A stretch of DNA of 64,000 nucleotides from Acidobacteriota bacterium. Its GTDB lineage: Bacteria; Acidobacteriota; Thermoanaerobaculia; Gp7-AA8. Below the pieces are notes generated by a model that saw only the letters and a program-made list of their open reading frames with translations, did no database searches and was not told where the DNA came from. The stretch spans positions 1-64,000 of the forward strand of contig QHVT01000019.1 in NCBI GenBank assembly GCA_003223645.1, in the 5' to 3' direction. Of the stretch, positions 22,194 to 59,526 are shown in pieces (position 1 is the first letter of the stretch; each line of letters opens with the position of its first letter). The translations under genes and the position numbers were made by a program.

Positions 22194-24605
22194 TTGCTCC
22201 TCCTCCTCTACACGCTCGCTGCGCTCGCTCTCCTCTGGCTCGTGCATCGGTTCGTGTGCAGGCTCTCGTGGGGCGCGGCCGCGTTTCTCTTCCTGCTTCC
22301 GTTCCTCTTCGTCGGGCACGCGCTCGTTGCGAATCGCGTGTATGCGCCGGTCGACAAGCCGTACCTGTCGGAGCCGCTGTCGGTCGTGGCGCGCGAGCAT
22401 GGGATGACGGGGCCGCCGCACAACCCCGTCACGGCTGACATCTTCTCGCAGATGATTCCGTGGCGGCAGGTAGTGCGGGAGTCGATTCTGCGCGGGGAGT
22501 GGCCGCTCTGGAATCCGTACATTTTGTCGGGCGACGTACTCGCCGCGGCGGCGCAGCCGGCGCCGTACAGTCCGTTCACGCTGCTCGCGATTCTGTTGCC
22601 CGCGGCGATCAGTTTCACGTTCACCGCCGCGATCACGTTCTTCGTCGCCGGCGTGTGCGCGTTCGCATTCGCGCGCGAGCTCGGATGCGGCGAGGCGGCG
22701 TCGGCGATCGCCGCGGGCGGATGGGCGTATTCGGCGGCGATCGCGTTGTATGTGCTGTGGCCTCTCGGACTGGCGTGGGCGCTCTTTCCGCTCGTGCTTC
22801 TCGGCACGCGCCGCGTGATTCATGCACCGTCGGTGCGGTCGTGCGCGTTGCTGACCATCGCCTTCACGCTTCTGATCCTCGCCGGCCACGAGGAGTCGAC
22901 GCTGCACATCATCGCCCTTGCCGGCGCGTACGGTCTCTTCGAATTGCTCTGCGTCCGCCGCAACACGCTGCGCGCTGTCGGCGCGGCCTTCGCCGCCGGC
23001 GCGATCGCGCTCCTCCTCTGCGCGATCTATCTGCTCCCGCATCTCGACGCGATCCCGCAGACGGCCGAGTACAAGTTCCGCAGCAGCTGGAAGGCGAAGC
23101 CGCGCGTGGACACGCCGCAGCAGGTGCTCGCGTCGATAGGGACCGACTTCTTCCCGTTCCTGCATCTCCGCCGCTGGATCGATCCGCCGGTGCCGGGACT
23201 GAAGGCGGAGTCGCCGGCGGTGGGCAGCATCATCGTCGCGCTGGCAGTCTTCGCGGTCTGGCGCGTTCGCTCGAAGACCACGTGGTTCTTCGCGGGCGCC
23301 ACGCTGTTCTGCCTCGCCGCGCACGCGGCGTGGAAGCCGGTCGCGGTGCTGTTGCACGCGCTGCCGCTGTTCGATCTTGCGCTCAACGAGCGTCTTGGAT
23401 TTGGCGCGGCGTTTTTCCTGATCATTCTTGCGGCGATTGGGGCGGAGCATGGAGTGGTGCGCGCCTCCGGTGCGCATTTGGGGGACGGGAGGAGCGCCGG
23501 AGGCGCGCACCACTCCATGCGCGCGCCACTCGACCTCGCGATCACGTTTGCCATCGTGTGGGTCGTGCTGGCGATCGGCACCTGGTGGATCACGAGCACG
23601 TTCAAGCTCGACGCGGGTCCGCGCGATTGGGGCGCGCACGCGATTCTCGCGGAGCTCGCGTTACTCGGTGCGGCCGCGCTCATCGTCGCGACGCGCCTGC
23701 CGATGAAGATGCTCGTCGTCGTCGCATTGCTGCTCGCGCAGCGAGCGATCACGATGGGCGGCGTGCACAAATCATTTCCCGCGAAAGACGCGTATCCATC
23801 GATGCCGATCTTCGATGCGATGAAAAACGTGTCCGAGCCGTTCCGCGTCGCCGGACAGGGATTCGCGTTGATGCCCGGCACGAACGCTCTGTACGGATTC
23901 GAAGACGTGCGCGGCTACGAGGCGATGACGTTCGCGCGGTACGTCGACACGTATCGGATCTGGTGCGTGCCGCAGCCGGTGTTCTTCAACCGTGTCGACG
24001 ATTTGTCGAAGCCGATGTTGTCGATGCTGAACGTCCGCTTCGCCTTCGCGCACGAGTCGGTCGCGACACCGCCCGGCTGGCGCATCGCCGCGAAGCAGGG
24101 CGAAGCGGTGCTGTTCGAAAACACGAATGCGATCGCGCGCGCGTTCGTGCCGCACAGCGTGAAGCCCGGCGCGTCGAACGTCATCGACGAGATGGCGAAC
24201 GCGACGGATTTTCGTGAGCGCGCATGGATCGATGCGGCGGGAAGCGAGCGTGCAAACGGTCCGGGCTTCGTCACGACGCGCCGCATCCGCTACGGCTACG
24301 AGCTCGACGCCACGATGGACGGCGATGGCTGGATCGTCGTCTCGATCTGCGACTGGAAAGGATGGCGCGCGTACATCGACGGCCATCGCGTGAACACGCA
24401 CCGCGCGAACGCCGCATTCATCGGAATTCACGCGCCCGCGGGGCGGCATCGCGTGCGCCTCGTCTACTGGCCGGTGTCGTTCGTGACGGGGCGGGGGATC
24501 ACGCTGGCCACGCTTCTCGGGCTTCTCACGTTTGCTGTGATCAGGCGAAAGGCTCAAAGGCTCACAGGCTCATGGGCTCATAGAAAAACCGCTGTGAGCC
24601 TATGA
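22194..24605 (+). CDS. YfhO-like multispanning membrane protein
   Basis: 803 residues with many hydrophobic segments and the N-terminal periplasmic motif ADIFSQMIPWRQVVRESILRG...PLWNPYILSG typical of YfhO/DUF6044-type proteins. These belong to the GT-C-like group implicated in glycosylation of envelope polymers. The C-terminal soluble part (from about 560) follows the YfhO pattern and a last membrane helix lies at about 760-780. Two oddities: a perfect palindrome is inserted in frame (23447-23520, read GVVRASGAHL...GGAHHSM), and the last residues are encoded by the 8-nt-unit hairpin at 24549-24625. The start is TTG with no ribosome-binding site, so it is uncertain. Confidence 0.72.
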   Translation: MLLLLYTLAALALLWLVHRFVCRLSWGAAAFLFLLPFLFVGHALVANRVYAPVDKPYLSEPLSVVAREHGMTGPPHNPVTADIFSQMIPWRQVVRESILRGEWPLWNPYILSGDVLAAAAQPAPYSPFTLLAILLPAAISFTFTAAITFFVAGVCAFAFARELGCGEAASAIAAGGWAYSAAIALYVLWPLGLAWALFPLVLLGTRRVIHAPSVRSCALLTIAFTLLILAGHEESTLHIIALAGAYGLFELLCVRRNTLRAVGAAFAAGAIALLLCAIYLLPHLDAIPQTAEYKFRSSWKAKPRVDTPQQVLASIGTDFFPFLHLRRWIDPPVPGLKAESPAVGSIIVALAVFAVWRVRSKTTWFFAGATLFCLAAHAAWKPVAVLLHALPLFDLALNERLGFGAAFFLIILAAIGAEHGVVRASGAHLGDGRSAGGAHHSMRAPLDLAITFAIVWVVLAIGTWWITSTFKLDAGPRDWGAHAILAELALLGAAALIVATRLPMKMLVVVALLLAQRAITMGGVHKSFPAKDAYPSMPIFDAMKNVSEPFRVAGQGFALMPGTNALYGFEDVRGYEAMTFARYVDTYRIWCVPQPVFFNRVDDLSKPMLSMLNVRFAFAHESVATPPGWRIAAKQGEAVLFENTNAIARAFVPHSVKPGASNVIDEMANATDFRERAWIDAAGSERANGPGFVTTRRIRYGYELDATMDGDGWIVVSICDWKGWRAYIDGHRVNTHRANAAFIGIHAPAGRHRVRLVYWPVSFVTGRGITLATLLGLLTFAVIRRKAQRLTGSWAHRKTAVSL
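23447..23520. repeat. Perfect palindrome inserted in frame in the YfhO-like gene
   Basis: Arms of 24 nt (23447-23470 and 23497-23520) are perfectly complementary around a 26-nt loop. The core GGAGTGGTGCGCGCCTCCGG is identical to the arm at 28973-28992. The element adds about 25 residues and does not disturb the reading frame. Both sense-strand occurrences read G-V-V-R-A-S-G. Confidence 0.9.
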
Positions 24606-24625
24606 GCCTATGAGCCTCTGCGCCT
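24549..24625. repeat. Hairpin built of 8-nt units (GGCTCATA family)
   Basis: Left arm units AGGCTCAA, AGGCTCAC, AGGCTCAT, GGGCTCAT; right arm GTGAGCCT, ATGAGCCT, ATGAGCCT. It encodes the last codons of the YfhO-like protein and ends about 14 nt before the BNR gene. TATGAT at its edge (24625 region) could be a -10 element. Relatives: 28397-28500, 47080-47197, 59389-59526. Confidence 0.75.
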
Positions 24626-24638
24626 ATGATTCCGCGCC

Positions 24639-27898: not shown

Positions 27899-28405
27899 AT
27901 GTTCACGGCCAAACGCATTCTCAAGGAGCTCGCTGATCCCGATCAGCGCCGCGCGATTCTCGCGGCGTTCTGGAAGCATGGCGACACGCACGCGAAGGCG
28001 ATGGCGCAGATGCAGCTTGCAAAGGCGATGCATTTCCGAGATGAGACGATTCGCAAGATGTCTCCGGAGAAGAAAGCGGATCTGCTCGCGTCGCGGATCG
28101 GCTCGCACGAGTTCGATCAGGTGCTCGAGATCGCGCTGATGCAGTACCACACGCACGAGAAGAGCGCGCTCCTCGGCGCGTTCCTCGATCGCTGGGGCAT
28201 CAAGCACGAGAACGGATCGATCGAAGGCGACGACTACACCCCGCCGACCGTCGACCAGGTACGCGAAGCGGTGAAGGACGTCGGCGATCAATTCGATCGC
28301 CGCGACGTCGCGCTCTATCTCGCCACCGCCGGCCTGCTGATGGCCGGCGAGTGGCGCGACGGGACGTGGCCGGTCGCGGAAGAGCTGGCGGGCAAAGGCT
28401 CATAG
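27899..28405 (+). CDS. Hypothetical protein in operon with the BNR gene
   Basis: 168 residues, cytoplasmic-looking, mostly alpha-helical. It begins two bases after the BNR stop, so co-transcription is nearly certain. Recognisable stretches include ILKELADPDQRRAILAAFW, MSPEKKADLLASRIG and QFDRRDVALYLATAGLLMAG. I do not recognise a family. Its last residues (GKGS) and its TAG stop fall in the GGCTCATA-unit hairpin that follows, so the repeat provides the stop codon. Confidence 0.6.
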   Translation: MFTAKRILKELADPDQRRAILAAFWKHGDTHAKAMAQMQLAKAMHFRDETIRKMSPEKKADLLASRIGSHEFDQVLEIALMQYHTHEKSALLGAFLDRWGIKHENGSIEGDDYTPPTVDQVREAVKDVGDQFDRRDVALYLATAGLLMAGEWRDGTWPVAEELAGKGS

Positions 28406-28500
28406 GCTCATAGGCTCACAGGCTCACAGGCACATAGATGTGTTCCTGTGCGCCTCTGAGCCTCTGAGCCTCTGAGCCTCTGAGCCTCTGAGCCTATGAT
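28397..28500. repeat. Hairpin built of 8-nt units (GGCTCATA family) between convergent genes
   Basis: Left arm: AGGCTCAT x2, AGGCTCAC x2, AGGCACAT. Right arm: about five tandem GAGCCTCT units then GAGCCTAT. It fills the gap between two convergent genes and could end transcription from both sides. Confidence 0.75.
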
Positions 28501-28509
28501 CCGATGCGC

Positions 28510-29091
28510 CTACCGTGCCGTGATCTTCAGCACCTTCCACTCGCCGTTTTCGACGAGCAGCGTGGCCGTCGCGTTGTGCGTTCCTTGGTATTGATTGCGC
28601 AGGAACGCGTCGCCGACTTCGTTCGCGATCCAGCGCCACGTGAAATCGGCGGACGCGGTGCCGTCCGGATTCGCGCGCACTTCCTGCACTTCGCCCATTT
28701 CCTTTTTCGCGAGCGGCACGATGTCGAGGATGCCGTTCGGCCGCAGCAGGAATCGCTTGTCCGTCCGCGCTTTGTCGCTGAGCATCACGTCGCCCGCTTC
28801 GTCGAGCGTGATCCATCCGGCGCTCGCGAGATCGCGCGCAGCCGCGCGCTGCGGATCGTTCATCGTGGAATGCGAGACCGGCAGCGAATACGCGGCGTCG
28901 GTGAATTGAAACTCGCCGAACTCCATCGATGACTGGATGATGTTTTTCGCGTCGTGGACTGCCGGTGGTGGTGGAGTGGTGCGCGCCTCCGGCGCGCCCC
29001 CGCCCGAAGGCGCGCCGGAGGCGCGCACCACTCCCGGCTCCTTCTTCGCGCAAGCAATGAACAGCAGTGCAATTACGAACAAACGCTTCAT
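28510..29091 (-). CDS. Lipoprotein of unknown function carrying an in-frame palindrome
   Basis: 193 residues; MKRLFVIALLFIAC is a short lipoprotein signal with the lipid-modified cysteine at about 14. Directly after KKEP the protein reads GVVRASGAPSGGGAPEARTT, encoded by the perfect palindrome 28973-29034, then a Pro-rich linker. The rest (from DAKNIIQSSMEFG) is a small mixed alpha/beta domain of unknown family ending GEWKVLKITAR, reminiscent of NTF2-like ends. The insertion falls in the flexible tether, where it should be tolerated. Its ATG overlaps the stop of the pseudouridine synthase gene by four bases (ATGA). Confidence 0.68.
   Translation of the reverse strand: MKRLFVIALLFIACAKKEPGVVRASGAPSGGGAPEARTTPPPPAVHDAKNIIQSSMEFGEFQFTDAAYSLPVSHSTMNDPQRAAARDLASAGWITLDEAGDVMLSDKARTDKRFLLRPNGILDIVPLAKKEMGEVQEVRANPDGTASADFTWRWIANEVGDAFLRNQYQGTHNATATLLVENGEWKVLKITAR
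28973..29034. repeat. Perfect palindrome inserted in frame in a lipoprotein gene
   Basis: Arms of 26 nt (28973-28998 and 29009-29034) pair perfectly around a 10-nt loop. They share the 20-nt core with 23447-23520. On the coding (minus) strand the arms read G-V-V-R-A-S-G-A and G-A-P-E-A-R-T-T, the same frame as in the YfhO-like gene. Confidence 0.9.
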
Positions 29092-33008: not shown

Positions 33009-33140
33009 CACAGGAAGGCAGAAGGCAGAAGGCAGAAGGCAGAAGGCAGAAGGCAGAAGTAAGAAGCCCGCCCGGCCGGCACGCTAATCGTCGGGCGTGC
33101 TTCTCAATTCTGCCTTCTGCCTTCTGCCTTCTGCCTTCCC
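33009..33140. repeat. Hairpin built of 7-nt units (GGCAGAA family)
   Basis: Left arm: about six tandem GGCAGAA units (33012-33058). Right arm: about four tandem TTCTGCC units (33109-33137). The loop is about 50 nt. Relatives: 44058-44165 and 57558-57692. It lies between the 32868 gene and the 33198-33599 gene. Confidence 0.8.
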
Positions 33141-41715: not shown

Positions 41716-41752
41716 TGGCATTCAATTTAATGCCAAATGGCCGCGTCGTCAA
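41716..41752 (-). promoter_or_regulatory. Promoter and palindromic operator of the RES/Xre operon
   Basis: Minus strand: -35 TTGACG (41752-41747), 17-nt spacer, -10 TAAATT (41729-41724). The -10 lies inside a palindrome TGGCATT-6 nt-AATGCCA (41735-41716), which ends one base before the ATG. This is the expected position for autorepression by the Xre-like antitoxin. The -35 overlaps the stop codon of the M14 peptidase gene. Confidence 0.78.
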
Positions 41753-44043
41753 GGACCCGATACGCTCCACCACAACGCATTGAACACCAGCGGAAACGTC
41801 GCATGCGTCTGTCCGCGGTGCTGCGGACGAAAGCCGAACAGCACGATCTTTCCCTTACCATACGTCGTCGCGACCGCCGCCGCTTTGCGTGCGAGACGGC
41901 TGGCGCCTTCGATCCAGCCGGAGAGGAGCACGTCTTTCTCGTCGTCGGGATAGGTCGCGAGGACCCAGCGCTGGATGTCGGTGGCGGGCGCGGTGGTTTC
42001 GAAGGCGATCGCTTCGTCCTGGAAGGCGGCTACTTCGCTCGGCATGCCGGCAGTTACGGGATGGTCGGTGCGGATTTTGAGTCGCACGAGTGATCCCGGA
42101 TTCGAATACTCCTCGGCGCGCACGCCCGCGAGGGCGTTGCGGACGGGGATGTTGAACTCGTCGATCACGTAGTCGCAGGCGTTGCCGAAGGCGATGAGCG
42201 TTCCGCCGCCGTCGACAAATTTGCGTAGCGCGTCGGCACCGGCGTGCTCTAAGCCACCGCGGTATTCGGGCGGCATTTCTTCCTCGTACTTCATCCGCGT
42301 GTCGCCCGGTCGTTGTTTGCCGGTCGCGATGACGTCCTTCGGCTGATCGGCGAGGATGAGCGCATCGATGTCGGTGATGCCTTTCTGAATGTCTTGCGCG
42401 GTGAGCTGTTTCACCTGCACGCCATAGGTCTCGAGCACCCAGCGCGTCCATCCTTCATCCATCGACGCCTGCCACGACTTGTAGGTCGCGACGCGCGGTT
42501 TCTTCGCGAGCTTCTCGCCGCGCGCGATCACTTCTTTCATCGCCGGCTTGATCTCCGTCACGCGGGTCGTGCCCTGCGGCATCGCCGCCCGCTCGACGCG
42601 CACTCCCATCTGCAGCGGCAACGTCCACGTCGCAATGTCGTACGGGCGCAGGATGTCTTTACCGGGCTGCAGGCGGACTTCGGGATAGCGCTGCGGCTCC
42701 ATCATCTCTTCGACGAACTTCGAGTACGGCTGCGCGAGCGGGATCCAGTAGTCGCCGTTCGTCGCCTGCCGCACTTCGACGTTGTGCTCGTTCATCAGCC
42801 AGGCGAGATACTGCGCGGTTGGCCAGTCGCGCTGATCGTGCGGAATGCGATATGCCTCATCGCCGCCGTGCGCGATCGCGGCGCGCGCGCGTGCGAGCAG
42901 GTTGCGCTGCAGATCCACGGCGCGATCGGCGGCGGTTTCGAGCAGGGCGTCCGAGGCGATGCGCTCGTAGTCCATGACATCGCGGAGACGCCACCAGCCG
43001 CCTTTCCACGGATTCGGATGATTGATCGTCGCCTTGTAGTCGATGAGGCCCTTCGTGCCGCCGCGCAATTCACTCGGCTCGATGTACGTCGGCGTCGCGA
43101 CGCGCGGCGACGCGGTCTCGAGCAGCAGTCCCGTGACGTTCTTCCACCAGCCGGTGTTGCGTGTGCCGCCGAGCCAGTAGGCGTCGAAGGAATAGCCGTA
43201 AATCAACCCGCTCTTTTCCGCCTGCTCGAGACGGAACGCCATGTTCGATCCGATGAGATTCGCCTCGCGCCAGATCAGCGGATGGACGTCGGGATCGACG
43301 GGATCCGCGAACGGCGGGATGAACATGCGCGGACCTTCGGAGCCCATCTGATGCTCGTCGACGAACACCTGCGGGTTCCACTCCTTGTAAAGCGCGCGGT
43401 TCACGTTGCGCGTCTCGACCTGCGTGAGCATGTACCAGTCGCGGTTGTTGTCGTGGCCCGTGTAGTGGTGATAGATCCAGGGCAATCGTCCGCCCTCGTA
43501 CTTCGTGCCGACGTATTTGCGGTACCACTCCGTGACCATGATCTGCCCGTCGGGATTGAGCGACGGCACGAGCAGCAGCACGACGTTCTTCAAACGCCGC
43601 TTCGTCTCCGCGTCGTTCGCGGCCGCGAGATCGTGCGCCCACTCCATCGCCATCTGACTCGACGCGATCTCGGTCGCGTGGATGTTGCACGTGACGATGA
43701 CGATCGTTTTTCCTTCGTCGATGAGCTTCGCCGCGTCGACGTCCGACAACCCGCGCGGATCGGCGAGCCGCTTCGCGATCTCCTGCAATCGCGTTTTGTT
43801 GCGTAGATTCGCCTCGTCGGAGATGACGGCCATGAACATCTCTTCGCCGAGCGTCGTCTTGCCGAGGACCTCGTAGTCGACGCGCGGGGAGGCTTGGTCG
43901 AGCGCGCGGAAGTAATCGCGGATCTGGCGGTAGTCGGCGAGCACGCGATCCTTGCCGATGTCGAGTTTGAGGAAGGAGCTGGGTGCGGGGATCTGTGCGG
44001 ACAGCGGAAGCGTGAACGCGAGAGCGAGAAGCAGGCGTTTCAT
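41749..44043 (-). CDS. Secreted M14-family zinc carboxypeptidase-like protein
   Basis: 764 residues from ATG 44043 with a signal peptide (MKRLLLALAFTLPLSA). The zinc-binding motif of M14 is present as CNIHATEIASSQ (H122, E125), with the third ligand probably in YHHYTGHDNNRDWY or VDEHQMGSEG. The catalytic domain covers about 30-420. A long C-terminal part follows, including a glutamine-amidotransferase-like beta region (LRKFVDGGGTLIAFG) near 640 of the kind seen in large bacterial M14 proteins. Further upstream in-frame codons are encoded by the GGCAGAA hairpin and are rejected. It is divergent from the 5'-nucleotidase-like lipoprotein. Confidence 0.85.
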   Translation of the reverse strand: MKRLLLALAFTLPLSAQIPAPSSFLKLDIGKDRVLADYRQIRDYFRALDQASPRVDYEVLGKTTLGEEMFMAVISDEANLRNKTRLQEIAKRLADPRGLSDVDAAKLIDEGKTIVIVTCNIHATEIASSQMAMEWAHDLAAANDAETKRRLKNVVLLLVPSLNPDGQIMVTEWYRKYVGTKYEGGRLPWIYHHYTGHDNNRDWYMLTQVETRNVNRALYKEWNPQVFVDEHQMGSEGPRMFIPPFADPVDPDVHPLIWREANLIGSNMAFRLEQAEKSGLIYGYSFDAYWLGGTRNTGWWKNVTGLLLETASPRVATPTYIEPSELRGGTKGLIDYKATINHPNPWKGGWWRLRDVMDYERIASDALLETAADRAVDLQRNLLARARAAIAHGGDEAYRIPHDQRDWPTAQYLAWLMNEHNVEVRQATNGDYWIPLAQPYSKFVEEMMEPQRYPEVRLQPGKDILRPYDIATWTLPLQMGVRVERAAMPQGTTRVTEIKPAMKEVIARGEKLAKKPRVATYKSWQASMDEGWTRWVLETYGVQVKQLTAQDIQKGITDIDALILADQPKDVIATGKQRPGDTRMKYEEEMPPEYRGGLEHAGADALRKFVDGGGTLIAFGNACDYVIDEFNIPVRNALAGVRAEEYSNPGSLVRLKIRTDHPVTAGMPSEVAAFQDEAIAFETTAPATDIQRWVLATYPDDEKDVLLSGWIEGASRLARKAAAVATTYGKGKIVLFGFRPQHRGQTHATFPLVFNALWWSVSGP

Positions 44044-44057
44044 GGCGCGCGGGATTA

Positions 44058-44165
44058 TGAAGGCAGAAGGCAGAAGGCAGAAGGCAGAACGTAGAATGGT
44101 GGCGATGAGAATGCGCCGACCGTTTCTCACTTCTGCCTTCTGCCTTCTGCCTTCTGCCTTGATCT
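44058..44165. repeat. Hairpin built of 7-nt units (GGCAGAA family), overlapping a signal-peptide coding region
   Basis: Left arm: tandem GGCAGAA units at 44062-44088. Right arm: four tandem TTCTGCC units at 44131-44159. The right arm is read in frame by the nucleotidase-like gene and encodes its signal-peptide core (S-A-F-C-L-L-P-S-A-L). The left arm lies in the gap between the divergent genes. Confidence 0.85.
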
Positions 44166-45658
44166 TCCTGACTGCCTGCGCGACCGTTCCCCCCGCCCCC
44201 GCCCATTTCAAAATTCTCCAGCTCAACGACGTCTACAAAATCGAAGGCCTCGAAGGCGGACAAAGCGGCGGACTGGCGCGCGTGCGTACGCTGCGCAAGC
44301 ATCTCGAGTCGGACGGCTCGCCGGTGCTCGTACTGCACGCGGGCGACGCGTTGTATCCGTCGTTGATGAGCAAGTATCTCGAAGCGAAGCCGATGGTCGA
44401 CGTGATGAATCTGCTGGACGGCGACTCGACGGCGAACGATCACAACTTCATCATCGTGTTCGGCAATCACGAGTTCGACAAGAGCGATCCGACGATTCTC
44501 CTCGACCGCGTCAAGGAGTCGCAGTTTCAGTGGATCTCGACGAACTCCGTCTACTGCAATCCCAACTGCGATCAGAAGTTTCCCGGCGTTCCCGAGCTCT
44601 ACGTCGAAGACGTCGGCGGCGTGAAGGTCGGCTTCATGGGACTGCTGTATCCGCTGCAGAACAAATACGCGCGCACGACCGACGTGATCGACGCGGCGAG
44701 GGACGCCGCGAATGTGCTGCGCGAGCAGATGGGCGCGCGCGTAGTCATCGCCATCACGCACGAGGACATGCCGGACGACGTGAAGCTCGTGCAGGCGCTG
44801 CCGGGAATCAACATCGTCATCGGCGGCCACGATCATCTCTTCATGCAGCAGCGAGTCGAGAACACGTGGATCGCGAAGGCGGACGCCGACGCGAAAAGTG
44901 TGATCGTATGGGACGTGATCGTGCCGCCGCACGGCCCGGTGCAAACGACGCCGCTGCGCGTCGTGCTCGATTCAACCGTGCCGAAAGACCCGGCAGTCGA
45001 TGCCGTGGTGCAGAAGTGGATGGGCGCGCTGTCGGACAAGCTCGGCGGCAATGACACGCTCGGCTACACGAAGAACCTGCTCGAAGGCGTCGAGCCCGCG
45101 GTGCGCGGACGCGAGACCGCCCTCGGCAATCTCCTCGCCGACGTCATGAGCGCGCAGATGCAGACCGACGTCGCGGTCATCAACGGCGGCTCGATCCGCA
45201 TCAACGACAACATCCCGCCCGGTCCGATCACGAAGTACGACATGGAAGGGATTTTTTATTACACGAACAAACTCGTGGCCTGCAACGTCACGGGACAACA
45301 GCTCCTCGACATGCTGCGCAATTCCGTCTCGCGCGTCGACGCCGGCGACGGCCGCTTCCTGCAAGTCTCCGGAATCAAATTCAAATACCACCCGCAAAAC
45401 GGCGCGTTCGTCGTGAATGCGAACGACGTCGAAGTCGGCGGCAAGCCGCTTGACGTCAACGCCACCTACACCCTCGGCATCATCGACTTCATGTACACAC
45501 GCGGCACCGAAGACGGCTACATGCTTTTCTCCGACGCCAATCGTCCGCCGAAAGTGAACACCGATCGCGAGGCGGATTTACGCGCGATGGTCGAGTCGTA
45601 CATTCGCAGGGTGGGGACGGTCGACACGGACATCGAAGGCAGAATCGTGCGGCAATAG
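44105..45658 (+). CDS. 5'-nucleotidase/metallophosphatase-like lipoprotein
   Basis: 517 residues from ATG 44105 (another ATG two codons later). The signal is MRMRRPFLTSAFCLLPSALI followed by FLTAC, a lipobox with Cys25. The metallophosphatase domain has LQLNDVYKIEG, LHAGDALYPS, VFGNHEFDKSD, ITHEDMP and GGHDHLFMQ. The C-terminal 5'-nucleotidase domain contains GNLLADVM, NGGSIRIND and the ending YMLFSDANRPP. In the first metal motif the usual His of N-D-x-H is Tyr (N-D-V-Y), a variant seen in some family members that may alter metal binding. It would act in the periplasm on nucleotides or UDP-sugars. The hydrophobic core of the signal is encoded by a hairpin repeat. Confidence 0.87.
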   Translation: MRMRRPFLTSAFCLLPSALIFLTACATVPPAPAHFKILQLNDVYKIEGLEGGQSGGLARVRTLRKHLESDGSPVLVLHAGDALYPSLMSKYLEAKPMVDVMNLLDGDSTANDHNFIIVFGNHEFDKSDPTILLDRVKESQFQWISTNSVYCNPNCDQKFPGVPELYVEDVGGVKVGFMGLLYPLQNKYARTTDVIDAARDAANVLREQMGARVVIAITHEDMPDDVKLVQALPGINIVIGGHDHLFMQQRVENTWIAKADADAKSVIVWDVIVPPHGPVQTTPLRVVLDSTVPKDPAVDAVVQKWMGALSDKLGGNDTLGYTKNLLEGVEPAVRGRETALGNLLADVMSAQMQTDVAVINGGSIRINDNIPPGPITKYDMEGIFYYTNKLVACNVTGQQLLDMLRNSVSRVDAGDGRFLQVSGIKFKYHPQNGAFVVNANDVEVGGKPLDVNATYTLGIIDFMYTRGTEDGYMLFSDANRPPKVNTDREADLRAMVESYIRRVGTVDTDIEGRIVRQ

Positions 45659-45854: not shown

Positions 45855-47078
45855 ATGAACCTCTCCCGCGCCATCGCCTGGCGCTATCTCCGACGTCCGA
45901 CCGATGCGCTGATCTCCGCCGTCGGCGTCGTCTCCATTCTCGGCCTTGTGATCGGCGTGATGGCGCTCGTCATCTCGATGGCGCTGATGACCGGCTATCG
46001 CGACGATCTTCAGAAAAAACTTCTCGGCGGCAACGCGGAGATCTTCGTTTACTCCGTCGGTGCGCCGATGACCGATCCCGCGCCGGTGATCAAGGTCGTG
46101 AAGAGTGTGCCCGGTGTCGCCGAAGCGTCGCCGGTGCTTTTTCAACACGCTGTCGTGACGACGGAGTCGAACACGACCGGCTCGGAAGTGATGATGAAGG
46201 GCATCGAGCCGACGCGCTGGCGCGACTCGCCGATGCTTTCGAAGATCGTCGGGCCGTCGCATCGCTTCGAAACGCGCGAAGGAGAGCAGGGCGTCGCGCT
46301 CGGAAAATATCTGGCGACGAAGCTTGGCGTGAAAGCGGGCGAGGCGATCAGCGTCACCGTTCCTTCAGTCGAGCAGGATCACCTTATGCCGCGCACATCG
46401 ACGTTCGTCGTCACGAACATCTTCGCGACCGGCTTCTACGAGTTCGACGCACGATGGATGTTCGTCGATCTCGCCGAGTCGCGGGAACTGTTCGGAATGC
46501 GCAGCGCGGCGAATTTGCTCGAGGTGAAGCTCGCGCCGCGCGCCGATCTCGATCGCGTGATGCATGACATCGAACAGGTCACCGATCGGCGGTACGCGGT
46601 CAGCGACTGGCGCGAGATGAACAAGCAGCTCTTCTCGATGCTGCGCTTCCAGCAGCTCGTGCTGTTCATCGTCATCGGACTGATCGTGTTCGTGTCGACG
46701 TTCAACATCGTCTCGACGCTGATCATGACGGTGCATGAGAAGCGCCGCGAGATCGGCATCCTCACGTCGATGGGCGCGCAAGGCTCGATGGTGCGGCGCG
46801 TGTTCATCTGGTACGGCACGATGGTCGGCATCGCCGGCACCGCCACCGGCGTGATCCTCGGCTCGCTGGTGTGCTGGATCATCACGCGCTACGAGCTCGT
46901 GTCGTTCCCGCCGGAGATCGCCGAGGTGTACTTCGTGTCGTCGATCCCGTTCATCATCGACGCGCGCTGGCTCGCGATCATCGCCGGCTTCTCGATCATC
47001 GTCTCGTTTCTCGCGACGATCATCCCCAGCATGCGCGCGGCGCGACTGAATCCGGTCGAAGCGTTGCGATACGAGTAG
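45855..47078 (+). CDS. Lipoprotein-releasing ABC transporter permease (LolC/LolE family)
   Basis: 407 residues: an N-terminal membrane helix (GVVSILGLVIGVMALVISMAL), a large periplasmic MacB-like domain (GNAEIFVYSVG to about 270), then three helices (LVLFIVIGLIVFVSTFNIVS, MVGIAGTATGVILGSLVCWI, WLAIIAGFSIIVSFLATII) and the ending AARLNPVEALRYE typical of FtsX-like permeases. The coupling motif HEKRREIGILTSMGAQ is present. It would extract mature lipoproteins from the inner membrane. No ATPase (LolD) is adjacent. CGGAGA about 7 nt upstream is the ribosome-binding site. Confidence 0.88.
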   Translation: MNLSRAIAWRYLRRPTDALISAVGVVSILGLVIGVMALVISMALMTGYRDDLQKKLLGGNAEIFVYSVGAPMTDPAPVIKVVKSVPGVAEASPVLFQHAVVTTESNTTGSEVMMKGIEPTRWRDSPMLSKIVGPSHRFETREGEQGVALGKYLATKLGVKAGEAISVTVPSVEQDHLMPRTSTFVVTNIFATGFYEFDARWMFVDLAESRELFGMRSAANLLEVKLAPRADLDRVMHDIEQVTDRRYAVSDWREMNKQLFSMLRFQQLVLFIVIGLIVFVSTFNIVSTLIMTVHEKRREIGILTSMGAQGSMVRRVFIWYGTMVGIAGTATGVILGSLVCWIITRYELVSFPPEIAEVYFVSSIPFIIDARWLAIIAGFSIIVSFLATIIPSMRAARLNPVEALRYE

Positions 47079-47079
47079 A

Positions 47080-47197
47080 GGCGCAGAGGCTCAAAGGCGC
47101 AGAGGCTCAAAGGCGCAGAGGCTCAAAGGCGCAGAGGCTCATAGTGAAAACCTATGAGCCCATGAGCCCATGAGCCTGTGAGCCCATGAGCCTCTGA
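47080..47197. repeat. Hairpin built of 8-nt units (GGCTCATA/GGCGCAGA family)
   Basis: Left arm: about seven units alternating AGGCGCAG and AGGCTCAA, ending AGGCTCAT. Right arm: units ATGAGCCC, ATGAGCCC, ATGAGCCT, GTGAGCCC, ATGAGCCT. It occupies the gap between the LolC/E-type gene and carA. Confidence 0.75.
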
Positions 47198-47218
47198 TGG
47201 TAGGATCGCATCGGGTTC

Positions 47219-53253: not shown

Positions 53254-54094
53254 ACTCCTGCGGCGCGTGCTTCCCGATGAAAAACTGGCTGAGGTCTTTT
53301 TTGTCGATGTAGATCGTCGTCGGCGCGGTCAGGCACTTCAGCTGGACGACGGTGTCGTTCATGACGCGCGCGACGCGGTAGACGTTGTGATCGTCCGCGA
53401 CCAGTTCGTCGCCCTCCTGCGGCTCATACCCCGCGAGGCTCGTCGTCACCTGCCGGTCCTCGGAGATCGCGCGCACGAGATCGCGCAGCGGCGCAATCGC
53501 ATCGACGAGCGCCTTCGGCAGCACGCGGCCCGGATGAAACACGCGCTCGACGTACTTGCCGCCGCCGCCGTCTTCGTACACGCGCAACTGCGAGCGGCGA
53601 TCCGCTTCTGGCGGCGCGAGCATGCTCTGGTCGACGCTGCGCAGCGATGCGGCGCTCGCGGCTTTCGCGTACGCGGCCAGCGCGTCCGGCGGAATGATCA
53701 CGCGCTTGAAGATCGTCCCGGCGCCGGTCATGTTGATGACGACGAGTCCGCCTTCGAAGAGCGACACGCGCTGTTCGATGCCGCCGTCGCGCGTGATGAA
53801 ATCGATCTTGGGACGCGGAAGATGTCCGTCGATCAGTTGCGAGCCGAGGGCCTGCTGCGCGCCGGCGAGATCGGGGATGTCGTACTTTCTCAGCATCCGC
53901 CGCTGCTCTTCCGGCAGCGGCGTCGCGATCACCGAGTTCGGCGGCGCAGGATCGACCTTCGATATGTCGTGCTGCGCGAAGATTGGCAAGGCGCAGAAGA
54001 AAAGAAGTGCTGCGTGCTGCGTGCTGCGTGCTCGGTGACTCTGCGCAATACGCAGCACCCGGCACCCGGCACGCAGCACCAACAACGGTCGCAC
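53252..54094 (-). CDS. Secreted hypothetical protein with repeat-derived signal region
   Basis: About 280 residues if started at GTG 54094, 19 nt after the CCA-enzyme gene. The mature-looking part begins QHDISKVDPAPPNSVIATPL. It contains beta-rich segments (VSLFEGGLVVINMTGAGTIF), an acidic middle and the end TTIYIDKKDLSQFFIGKHAP. No known family. The export signal (HAALLFFCALPIFAQ) is preceded by about 25 residues encoded by the GTGCTGC-unit hairpin 54005-54083. The start is therefore unusual and uncertain: either translation begins upstream of the hairpin, or the hairpin has disrupted an older start. Confidence 0.6.
   Translation of the reverse strand: MRPLLVLRAGCRVLRIAQSHRARSTQHAALLFFCALPIFAQHDISKVDPAPPNSVIATPLPEEQRRMLRKYDIPDLAGAQQALGSQLIDGHLPRPKIDFITRDGGIEQRVSLFEGGLVVINMTGAGTIFKRVIIPPDALAAYAKAASAASLRSVDQSMLAPPEADRRSQLRVYEDGGGGKYVERVFHPGRVLPKALVDAIAPLRDLVRAISEDRQVTTSLAGYEPQEGDELVADDHNVYRVARVMNDTVVQLKCLTAPTTIYIDKKDLSQFFIGKHAPQE
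54005..54083. repeat. Hairpin built of 7-nt units (GTGCTGC family)
   Basis: Left arm: three tandem GTGCTGC units then GTGCTCG. Right arm: GCAGCAC, CCGGCAC, CCGGCAC, GCAGCAC. It lies inside the 5' part of the secreted-protein gene at 53252-54094. It is the only member of this unit family in the window. Confidence 0.8.
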
Positions 54095-57488: not shown

Positions 57489-57557
57489 CGGGAGGGACGA
57501 GCGCGTGTTGGATGATGCGCGCGTTGCGCATGTGGCGAGTTCGTGCGCGCACCGGCC

Positions 57558-57692
57558 AAGAACGCAGAAGGCAGAGCGCAGAAGGCAGAAGTGAGAAGTA
57601 CCGCCGCGCGCGTGGCAAAGTTCGTCATGATCCGGGGGGTGGGGTTTCTAACTTCTGCCTTCTGCGCTCTGCCTTCTGCGTTTCAGGGACGT
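57558..57692. repeat. Hairpin built of 7-nt units (GGCAGAA/GCGCAGA family)
   Basis: Left arm: GCAGAAG, GCAGAGC, GCAGAAG, GCAGAAG. Right arm: TTCTGCC, TTCTGCG, CTCTGCC, TTCTGCG. The GC-to-AG substitutions in one arm are matched in the other. It lies between the GGDEF gene and the DUF4388 gene at 57761. Confidence 0.78.
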
Positions 57693-58870: not shown

Positions 58871-59394
58871 TCCGCAAGGCCACGATCGACGACCTTCCCG
58901 CGATCGAGCGCGTGATGCGCGCGTCGATGTCCTCCCTCGGCGCGAACTTTTATGACGCTGAAAAAGTCCCGAGCGCCGTCCAGTTCATCGCCATCCCCGA
59001 TCGTCAACTGATTGACGATGGCACGTACTACGTCGTCGTCGAAGACGATGCGATCGTCGCCTGCGGCGGGTGGAGCTGGCGCAGGAAGCTCTTCACCGGG
59101 ACGTCCGATCAGGATGCGGCGATCGGGGACATCGATCCGGCGCACGATCCTGCACGCATCCGAGCGATGTTCGTCCATCCCGACTACGCACGCCGCGGAC
59201 TCGGCCGGCTCATCCTCGCAACTTCGGAAGAACAGGCGCTGCAGCTGGGATTCACACGCTTCGAGCTGATGGCGACGCTGCCCGGCGTTCCGCTGTACGA
59301 GGCCTGCGGCTACGATCGCGTCGAGAACGTCACGCTCGATCTTCCCGACGGCACCAGGCTCGACTGCGTGAGGATGGAGAAAGCAGGCGCATAG
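58867..59394 (+). CDS. GNAT-family N-acetyltransferase
   Basis: 175 residues from GTG 58867, overlapping the DUF4388 stop by four bases. Motif A (RAMFVHPDYARRGLGRLILA) contains the acetyl-CoA pyrophosphate loop R/Q-x-x-G-x-G/A, and MATLPGVPLYEACGYDRVE is the usual end. The substrate is unknown. The pairing with a DUF4388 protein suggests a signalling-linked modification, but this is inference. Confidence 0.85.
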   Translation: MIRKATIDDLPAIERVMRASMSSLGANFYDAEKVPSAVQFIAIPDRQLIDDGTYYVVVEDDAIVACGGWSWRRKLFTGTSDQDAAIGDIDPAHDPARIRAMFVHPDYARRGLGRLILATSEEQALQLGFTRFELMATLPGVPLYEACGYDRVENVTLDLPDGTRLDCVRMEKAGA

Positions 59395-59526
59395 GCGCAT
59401 GGGCGCATGGGCTCACAGCCAGAACTTCCATGAGCCCATGAGCCTATGAGCCATGAGCCTATGAGCCATGAGCCCATGAGCCCATGAGCCCATGAGCCAT
59501 GAGCCTATGAGCCCATGAGCCTCCGA
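59389..59526. repeat. Tandem 8-nt-unit repeat (GGCTCATA family)
   Basis: Short left arm (AGGCGCAT, AGGCGCAT, GGGCGCAT, GGGCTCAC) and a long right arm of about twelve ATGAGCC(C/T) units. Some units have lost one base, giving the 7-nt ATGAGCC. It lies between the GNAT gene and the following lipoprotein gene. It is the longest member of the family here. Confidence 0.75.

Follow-up and report, generated by a model that had tools for sequence, protein, structure and literature searches.

How does a tandem repeat come to encode the hydrophobic core of an export signal? The question is raised by a 64,000-nt stretch of contig QHVT01000019.1 from an Acidobacteriota bacterium (hereafter the window; coordinates are positions in it), where a hairpin element built of tandem heptamers runs in frame into a predicted 5′-nucleotidase lipoprotein gene. 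The best explanation, which we consider probable from sequence comparisons, is that an inserted heptamer element now supplies the basic n-region and the hydrophobic h-region of a pre-existing signal peptide. The source genome is designated G000, and its relatives G001, G007 and so on.

The repeat arm at the start of the predicted 5′-nucleotidase gene

The architecture of the element is read directly from the DNA. It has the layout ATGAA(GGCAGAA)n-loop-(TTCTGCC)4TTgAT and forms a near-perfect hairpin (Table 1). The 45-nt arms are 87% complementary with 27 nt between them, the inner arms are 93-94% complementary, and the predicted RNA fold reaches −86.6 kcal/mol (z = −13.8). A TTCTCAC collar stands at 44124-44130. 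In the frame of the ATG at 44105, the right arm and the nucleotides after it read TCT GCC TTC TGC CTT CTG CCT TCT GCC TTG ATC TTC CTG ACT GCC TGC, which translates to SAFCLLPSAL-IFLTAC. This confirms, at 44131-44179, the original prediction that four in-frame TTCTGCC units give SAFCLLPSAL followed by IFLTAC. That prediction placed the feature at 44105-44180; the repeat arm does lie there, but the element as a whole spans 44057-44163, with the start codons (ATG at 44057, 44096, 44105 and 44111) and the basic n-region coming from the left tip and the loop.

Judged from the sequence, ATG 44111 is most likely the start of the gene, with 44105, 44096 or 44057 possible, and GGTGG, 8 nt upstream of ATG 44111, may act as a Shine-Dalgarno-like stretch. 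Read from ATG 44111, the N-terminus is MRRPFLTSAFCLLPSALIFLTAC, a predicted textbook lipoprotein signal peptide: basic residues (MRRP or MRMRRP) right before the core, a hydrophobic core of the usual ~10-15 residues (FLTSAFCLLPSALIFL) and a lipobox, LTAC. Both PF00149 and PF02872 are present, as in other members of the 5′-nucleotidase family. The signal-peptide features support the identification of the repeat arm as the h-region. No start codon beyond the right arm would retain a signal peptide: in frame, the next candidates are TTG 44159, which would give MIFLTAC... without a core, and a GTG inside the conserved domain. Without the repeat there would thus be no signal sequence, as had been proposed.

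Signal peptides of repeat-free homologues

A scan of named genomes gave 45 homologues with readable N-termini. A hydrophobic N-terminus was found in 44 of the 45 and a lipobox in 23, and the repeat peptide was found in none. The syntenic gene of G010, which lies beside the same divergent peptidase and is free of the repeat, has the signal peptide MRFAVAVLLFLSTSFAAFAEG; the homologues in G011 and G042 carry ordinary signal peptides, again different and without repeat. A lipobox at the position of 44164-44179 is common among repeat-free homologues. The comparison with relatives suggested with the prediction turned up signal peptides in these homologues, but different from that of the window gene, so that the condition set for refutation, the same signal peptide in genomes without the repeat, did not occur. 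Because the homologues possess ordinary, different signal peptides, the element appears to have replaced the n- and h-region of an existing one. Elsewhere among the element-borne genes, what follows the arm can be aligned with the c-region or lipobox of orthologues that lack the repeat, and the region of the cleavage site seems to be inherited.

The gene for a DUF5777 beta-barrel protein offers a series of states. Its native start, ATGA, is common to G000, G014, G008, G007 and G017, and is GTGA in G001. What follows this start is an ordinary signal peptide with no hairpin in G017 and G001, a GGTTGTC heptamer run in G007, a GAATGCA hairpin in G008, and GAAGGCA/GAAAGCA hairpins in G014 and G000. 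The hairpins of G000, G014 and G008 sit a few codons past the native start, and the G000 gene retains a native-like ...VFFLTTTSALAQ tail. This series suggests that elements entered the signal-peptide sequence between the start and the cleavage site.

Repeat-made signal peptides were also seen in orthologues of G001, G007, G008, G014 and G015, often with another heptamer. Three loci show variant layouts. The G007 DUF5777 orthologue (L311) has its signal peptide on the GGTTGTC run with no partner arm, and the G011 rhodanese orthologue (L319) has it on a CTGCTGCC-type hairpin. In a G007 SBP_bac_3 gene (L305, minus strand, ~380-520), the signal peptide is made of TTCTCCG heptamers and the mature N-terminus (GERRTENGE) contains the complementary arm, so that the arms stand in reverse order.

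Coding properties of the heptamer palindrome

The TTCTGCC strand encodes SAFCLLP in all three frames, with no stops and a mean Kyte-Doolittle hydropathy of 1.76, and the GAAGGCA strand encodes EGRRQKA in all three frames, also with no stops and with a net charge of +2. Because a 7-nt unit does not divide evenly into codons, every frame of an arm gives one 7-residue repeat; the repeat had rightly been described as hydrophobic, but this holds for every frame of that strand and not only for one. Since one arm is basic and its complement hydrophobic, the palindrome reads basic-then-hydrophobic from both ends, with an ATG at each tip to open the reading. Readings from the tips are open through the element in 68 of 88 cases in the ATG frame, 0 of 88 in the +1 frame and 55 of 88 in the +2 frame; the collar GTAAGAA/GTGAGAA has a stop in the +1 frame.

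We propose that a dispersed palindromic element of this kind may have inserted into an existing signal-peptide sequence, past its start region and ahead of its cleavage-site region, and that the product of the element would then serve as n- and h-region. Such a basic-then-hydrophobic reading in both orientations could let genes for exported proteins tolerate an insertion and possibly keep it. We infer a translation start within the element, export and lipidation of the product, and an origin by insertion rather than by growth in situ.

Probable element-derived N-termini in other genes

The element survey covered 774 kb of the 6.4-Mb genome, taken around repeat matches and hence enriched for elements by design. 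Ranking of the frames by codon usage placed 82 genes immediately after an arm, on the side towards which the arm reads as hydrophobic. The majority carry an ATG of their own soon after the element, often within 3-30 nt, and many are housekeeping genes; in those identified by eye as CTP synthase, trigger factor, DnaE and SdhA, the element is upstream of the native ATG and untranslated. About 15 genes, the 5′-nucleotidase gene included, are best read from an element ATG (one from GTG) because no site past the arm could provide both a start and a signal. The general idea that elements of this kind can give rise to export signals thus has broader support than was claimed for it. Examples of these N-termini are MKAEGRRQKAEIRKRRGTRLAVFLTSAFCLLPSAFIALPVHA-Q, MKAEGRRQKAEVRKNTRRKLTSYFCLLPSAFCLLLFSA-C and MKAEGRRQKAESRMKRVLTSALCLLPSAFMFLA-C. 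The Pfam assignments of the ~15 genes are mostly extracytoplasmic (5′-nucleotidase, sulfatase, phosphodiesterase, PQQ dehydrogenase, SBP_bac_1 and SBP_bac_3, as well as BatD, DUF5777 beta-barrel, CrtC/lipocalin_9 and the membrane protein YfhO); the remainder (TPR, DUF547, DsbH and rhodanese) are compatible with export and not diagnostic, and one gene has no match.

Of the 23 genes with an in-frame element ATG, 7 have a lipobox ([LVI][ASTVI][GAS]C) no more than 14 residues past the arm, as against 0 of the 59 without such an ATG (Fisher, 6e-5). The background frequency of the pattern in coding sequence is 1.0%, and the binomial probability of at least 7 in 23 is 2.6e-9. This test replaces a first count (5/16), which was made on a hand-picked group and ignored the last arm residues.

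Several candidates were rejected. The transketolase gene (L146:1515-4412) was not accepted as fused, its Pfam domain beginning only at residue 295. Fusions to an MglA-like gene (L208) and at L203, L182 and L155:9045 were put down to chance, as an own ATG follows. High-scoring antisense open reading frames from ATG tips (e.g. L178+ and L210−) failed comparison with the other frames and strand.

Apparent unit turnover at shared sites

In G001, which belongs to the same genus, TTCTGCG is abundant and the arms are dominated by TTCTGCG and TTCTTCA. Comparison of the two genomes revealed 13 orthologous pairs with an element at the same 5′ position. Nine of these came from a G001 sample that was not chosen for signal peptides, with a rough chance expectation of ~0.5 (36 genes sampled and 82 element-bearing among ~5,500, the gene number being estimated from genome size). 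For BatD, SBP_bac_3, YfhO, CrtC and sulfatase, a repeat-made N-terminal segment is present in both genomes with different heptamers. Shared sites with different heptamers suggest that the sites persist while the heptamers are renewed genome-wide and the encoded signal survives, and independent re-insertion at the shared sites is possible. We regard the broader picture as evenly balanced between true and false: that the elements are portable signal-peptide cassettes which have repeatedly overwritten the signal peptides of orthologues across one Acidobacteriota family, with the heptamer renewed per lineage at conserved sites and the signal kept. The gene starts with elements in both genomes are found at L143-L220 and in the window for G000 (TTCTGCC), and at L281-L292 and L321-L360 for G001 (TTCTGCG/TTCTTCA).

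Alternative explanations

Several points weigh against insertion into a signal peptide as we read it. The tip start codon would be hidden in the strong mRNA hairpin unless the stem melts or the transcript begins inside the element; in the 5′-nucleotidase gene, this problem would be smaller if translation started in the loop or transcription within the element. The glutamates of the left arm and the proline of the right arm are not ideal in a signal peptide. For several fused-looking genes, such as the MglA-like one, an ATG of their own past the element gives the better reading, and some in-frame fusions are therefore due to chance. Signal peptides were assessed by n/h/c anatomy and the lipobox pattern, the gene calls are approximate, being based on an in-house codon-usage score, and part of the set of fused genes was chosen by hand, although the lipobox test is free of hand selection.

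An alternative that we consider possible, if clearly the less probable course, is that a nucleic-acid function (RNA hairpin, terminator, promoter or nucleoid site) keeps the element and that signal coding is a tolerated side effect, which would be compatible with use as a signal. Most element copies are not read as coding, the predicted fold is very strong, and at the sites shared by G000 and G001 the heptamer changes while the hairpin stays; a nucleic-acid role alone does not explain the lipobox bias.

It is unlikely that the element is 5′-untranslated or intergenic repeat DNA read in frame by accident, with translation starting at TTG 44159 or beyond and no signal peptide. The untranslated copies ahead of housekeeping ATGs fit this idea, and stop-free arms let many open frames cross them by default. 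The 5′-nucleotidase gene does not fit, since no ATG lies between the arm and its conserved domain (the next is at +207 nt), its homologues are nearly all hydrophobic at the N-terminus, and without the arm its lipobox cysteine would have no hydrophobic core; the difference between 7/23 and 0/59 also speaks against an accidental reading. The first proposal, de novo creation of an export signal on a protein that had been cytoplasmic, draws on a core that is almost wholly repeat-derived and is very improbable given the ordinary hydrophobic N-termini of the G010, G011 and G042 orthologues and of nearly every readable homologue, and the aligned cleavage-site regions of other element-borne genes.

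Relation to known repeats

A mobile palindrome contributing to a signal peptide is already known from the RU-2/Yersinia palindromic sequence in YPO1552 (Delihas 2007, PMC2759123; PMC2229807), where, as here, the signal peptides of homologues are unrelated to the element. RU-2 is a fixed 168-bp sequence at few loci, with one main case, whereas the G000 elements consist of tandem heptamers and serve ~15 genes in one genome; unlike RU-2, their reading is independent of orientation, and the hydrophobic arm is usable in any frame. In-frame palindromes are likewise known from the Rickettsia palindromic elements (RPE), which are inserted in protein genes and translated (PMC10969869, PMC2229807), and the G000 palindrome is also in frame and open through the element into conserved genes. 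As far as the available descriptions of RPE go, these are 105-146 bp family sequences in unrelated metabolic genes, with no mention of a link to signal peptides or of tandem-heptamer arms; compared by description only, the G000 elements have no such conserved 105-146 bp family sequence.

Tandem heptamers that are dispersed and mostly lie between genes occur in Xanthomonas (GGGAATC) and Nostoc (GGGGA(C/T)T), with 70-75 convergent (inverted) pairs per genome in Xanthomonas (PMC4692102), and such inverted pairs of tandem 7-nt units were found in 72 of 105 G000 elements. The Xanthomonas repeats differ in having a G-rich quadruplex-type unit and an average distance of 160 nt from the downstream open reading frame, and signal peptides are unmentioned (PMC4692102); GAAGGCA has no G-tract of three. 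REP elements, tagged with GTAG/CGTC, are dispersed short palindromes of 20-40 bp (PMC3733652), whereas the G000 elements have ATGAA/TTCAT tips and arms that are heptamer arrays. Converging heptamer arrays are thus known already, as are the two kinds of palindrome above; what is new is the coding logic, with an orientation-independent reading and an arm that is hydrophobic in every frame, together with the scale. A search of the PMC literature, outside which most subscription journals lie, found neither the repeat strings nor the peptide strings in any paper, and searches there for de novo signal peptides yielded nothing relevant.

Signal peptides evolve fast and their replacement is seldom visible. 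A palindromic basic-then-hydrophobic repeat shows concretely how dispersed repeat DNA could enter coding sequence and be retained there, an example of a non-coding repeat becoming part of a protein, and it makes signal-peptide turnover directly testable. For annotators it is a caution that such N-termini resemble translations of junk repeats, yet are probably real.

The repeat family and neighbouring features

Table 1. Features around the hairpin element (window coordinates)
Feature	Position	Strand	Remarks
Predicted 5′-nucleotidase/metallophosphatase lipoprotein gene	44111..45658	+	PF02872 1.9e-31, PF00149 7.4e-13; codon usage clearly favours frame
Hairpin element, class A of family	44057..44163	+	ATG tip, heptamer arm, loop, heptamer arm, tip TTgAT (family consensus TTCAT)
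Left arm (GAAGGCA)4	44059..44086	+	From ATG 44057 reads MKAEGRRQKAE, basic
Collars and loop	44087..44130	+	In-frame ATG 44096, 44105, 44111; reads (M)RMRRPFLT, predicted basic n-region
Right arm (TTCTGCC)4	44131..44158	+	Reads SAFCLLPSA, predicted h-region
Putative native c-region, outside element	44164..44179	+	End of Ile codon, then F-L-T-A-C lipobox; Cys codon 44177-44179
Divergent M14-type carboxypeptidase gene	41749..44043	−	Own signal peptide MKRLLLALAFTLPLSAQ; neighbour also in G010; family assigned by eye

The start codon of the divergent peptidase gene is 13 nt from the element tip (44041-44059), so the promoters for both genes must be in the element or in neighbouring genes. In the carboxypeptidase direction, the tip ATG of the element is mutated to ATC.

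The string TTCTGCCTTCTGCC has 16 matches in the window at one mismatch or fewer, as against 0 in 100 shuffles, and occurs 198+197 times in the genome. Exactly one converging pair of arms was present in the 72 paired elements among the 105, and 62 of these 72 had ATGAA/TTCAT at one or both tips, allowing one mismatch. Loops vary between copies, and only the heptamer arms, collars and tips are in common. Within the phylum, 14 of 396 genomes contain the exact three-unit string, with a patchy distribution. In relatives, sites without the repeat have diverged too far in DNA sequence for a confident reading of target-site duplications. For a RAYT/REP origin, the genome gave one PF01797 (Y1_Tnp) match and nothing further, ~53 kb into contig 4 and with no link to the elements shown.

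A second class (class B) has GGAA..TTCC ends inside outer G+C-rich arms. In the window, heptamer hairpins nested in such outer inverted repeats lie at 33010-33140 and 57555-57685; in the latter, variant units agree between the arms (AACGC, AGCGC), as if the arms were kept complementary. Another hairpin family of like style, with 8-nt units (AGGCTCAT / ATGAGCCT), is found at 24545-24632, 28392-28512, 47075-47200 and 59380-59525. A GTGCTGC-unit hairpin at 54003-54083 (minus strand) stands right before ...STQHAALLFFCALPIFAQ-HDIS and resembles another repeat-derived signal peptide made from a different heptamer.
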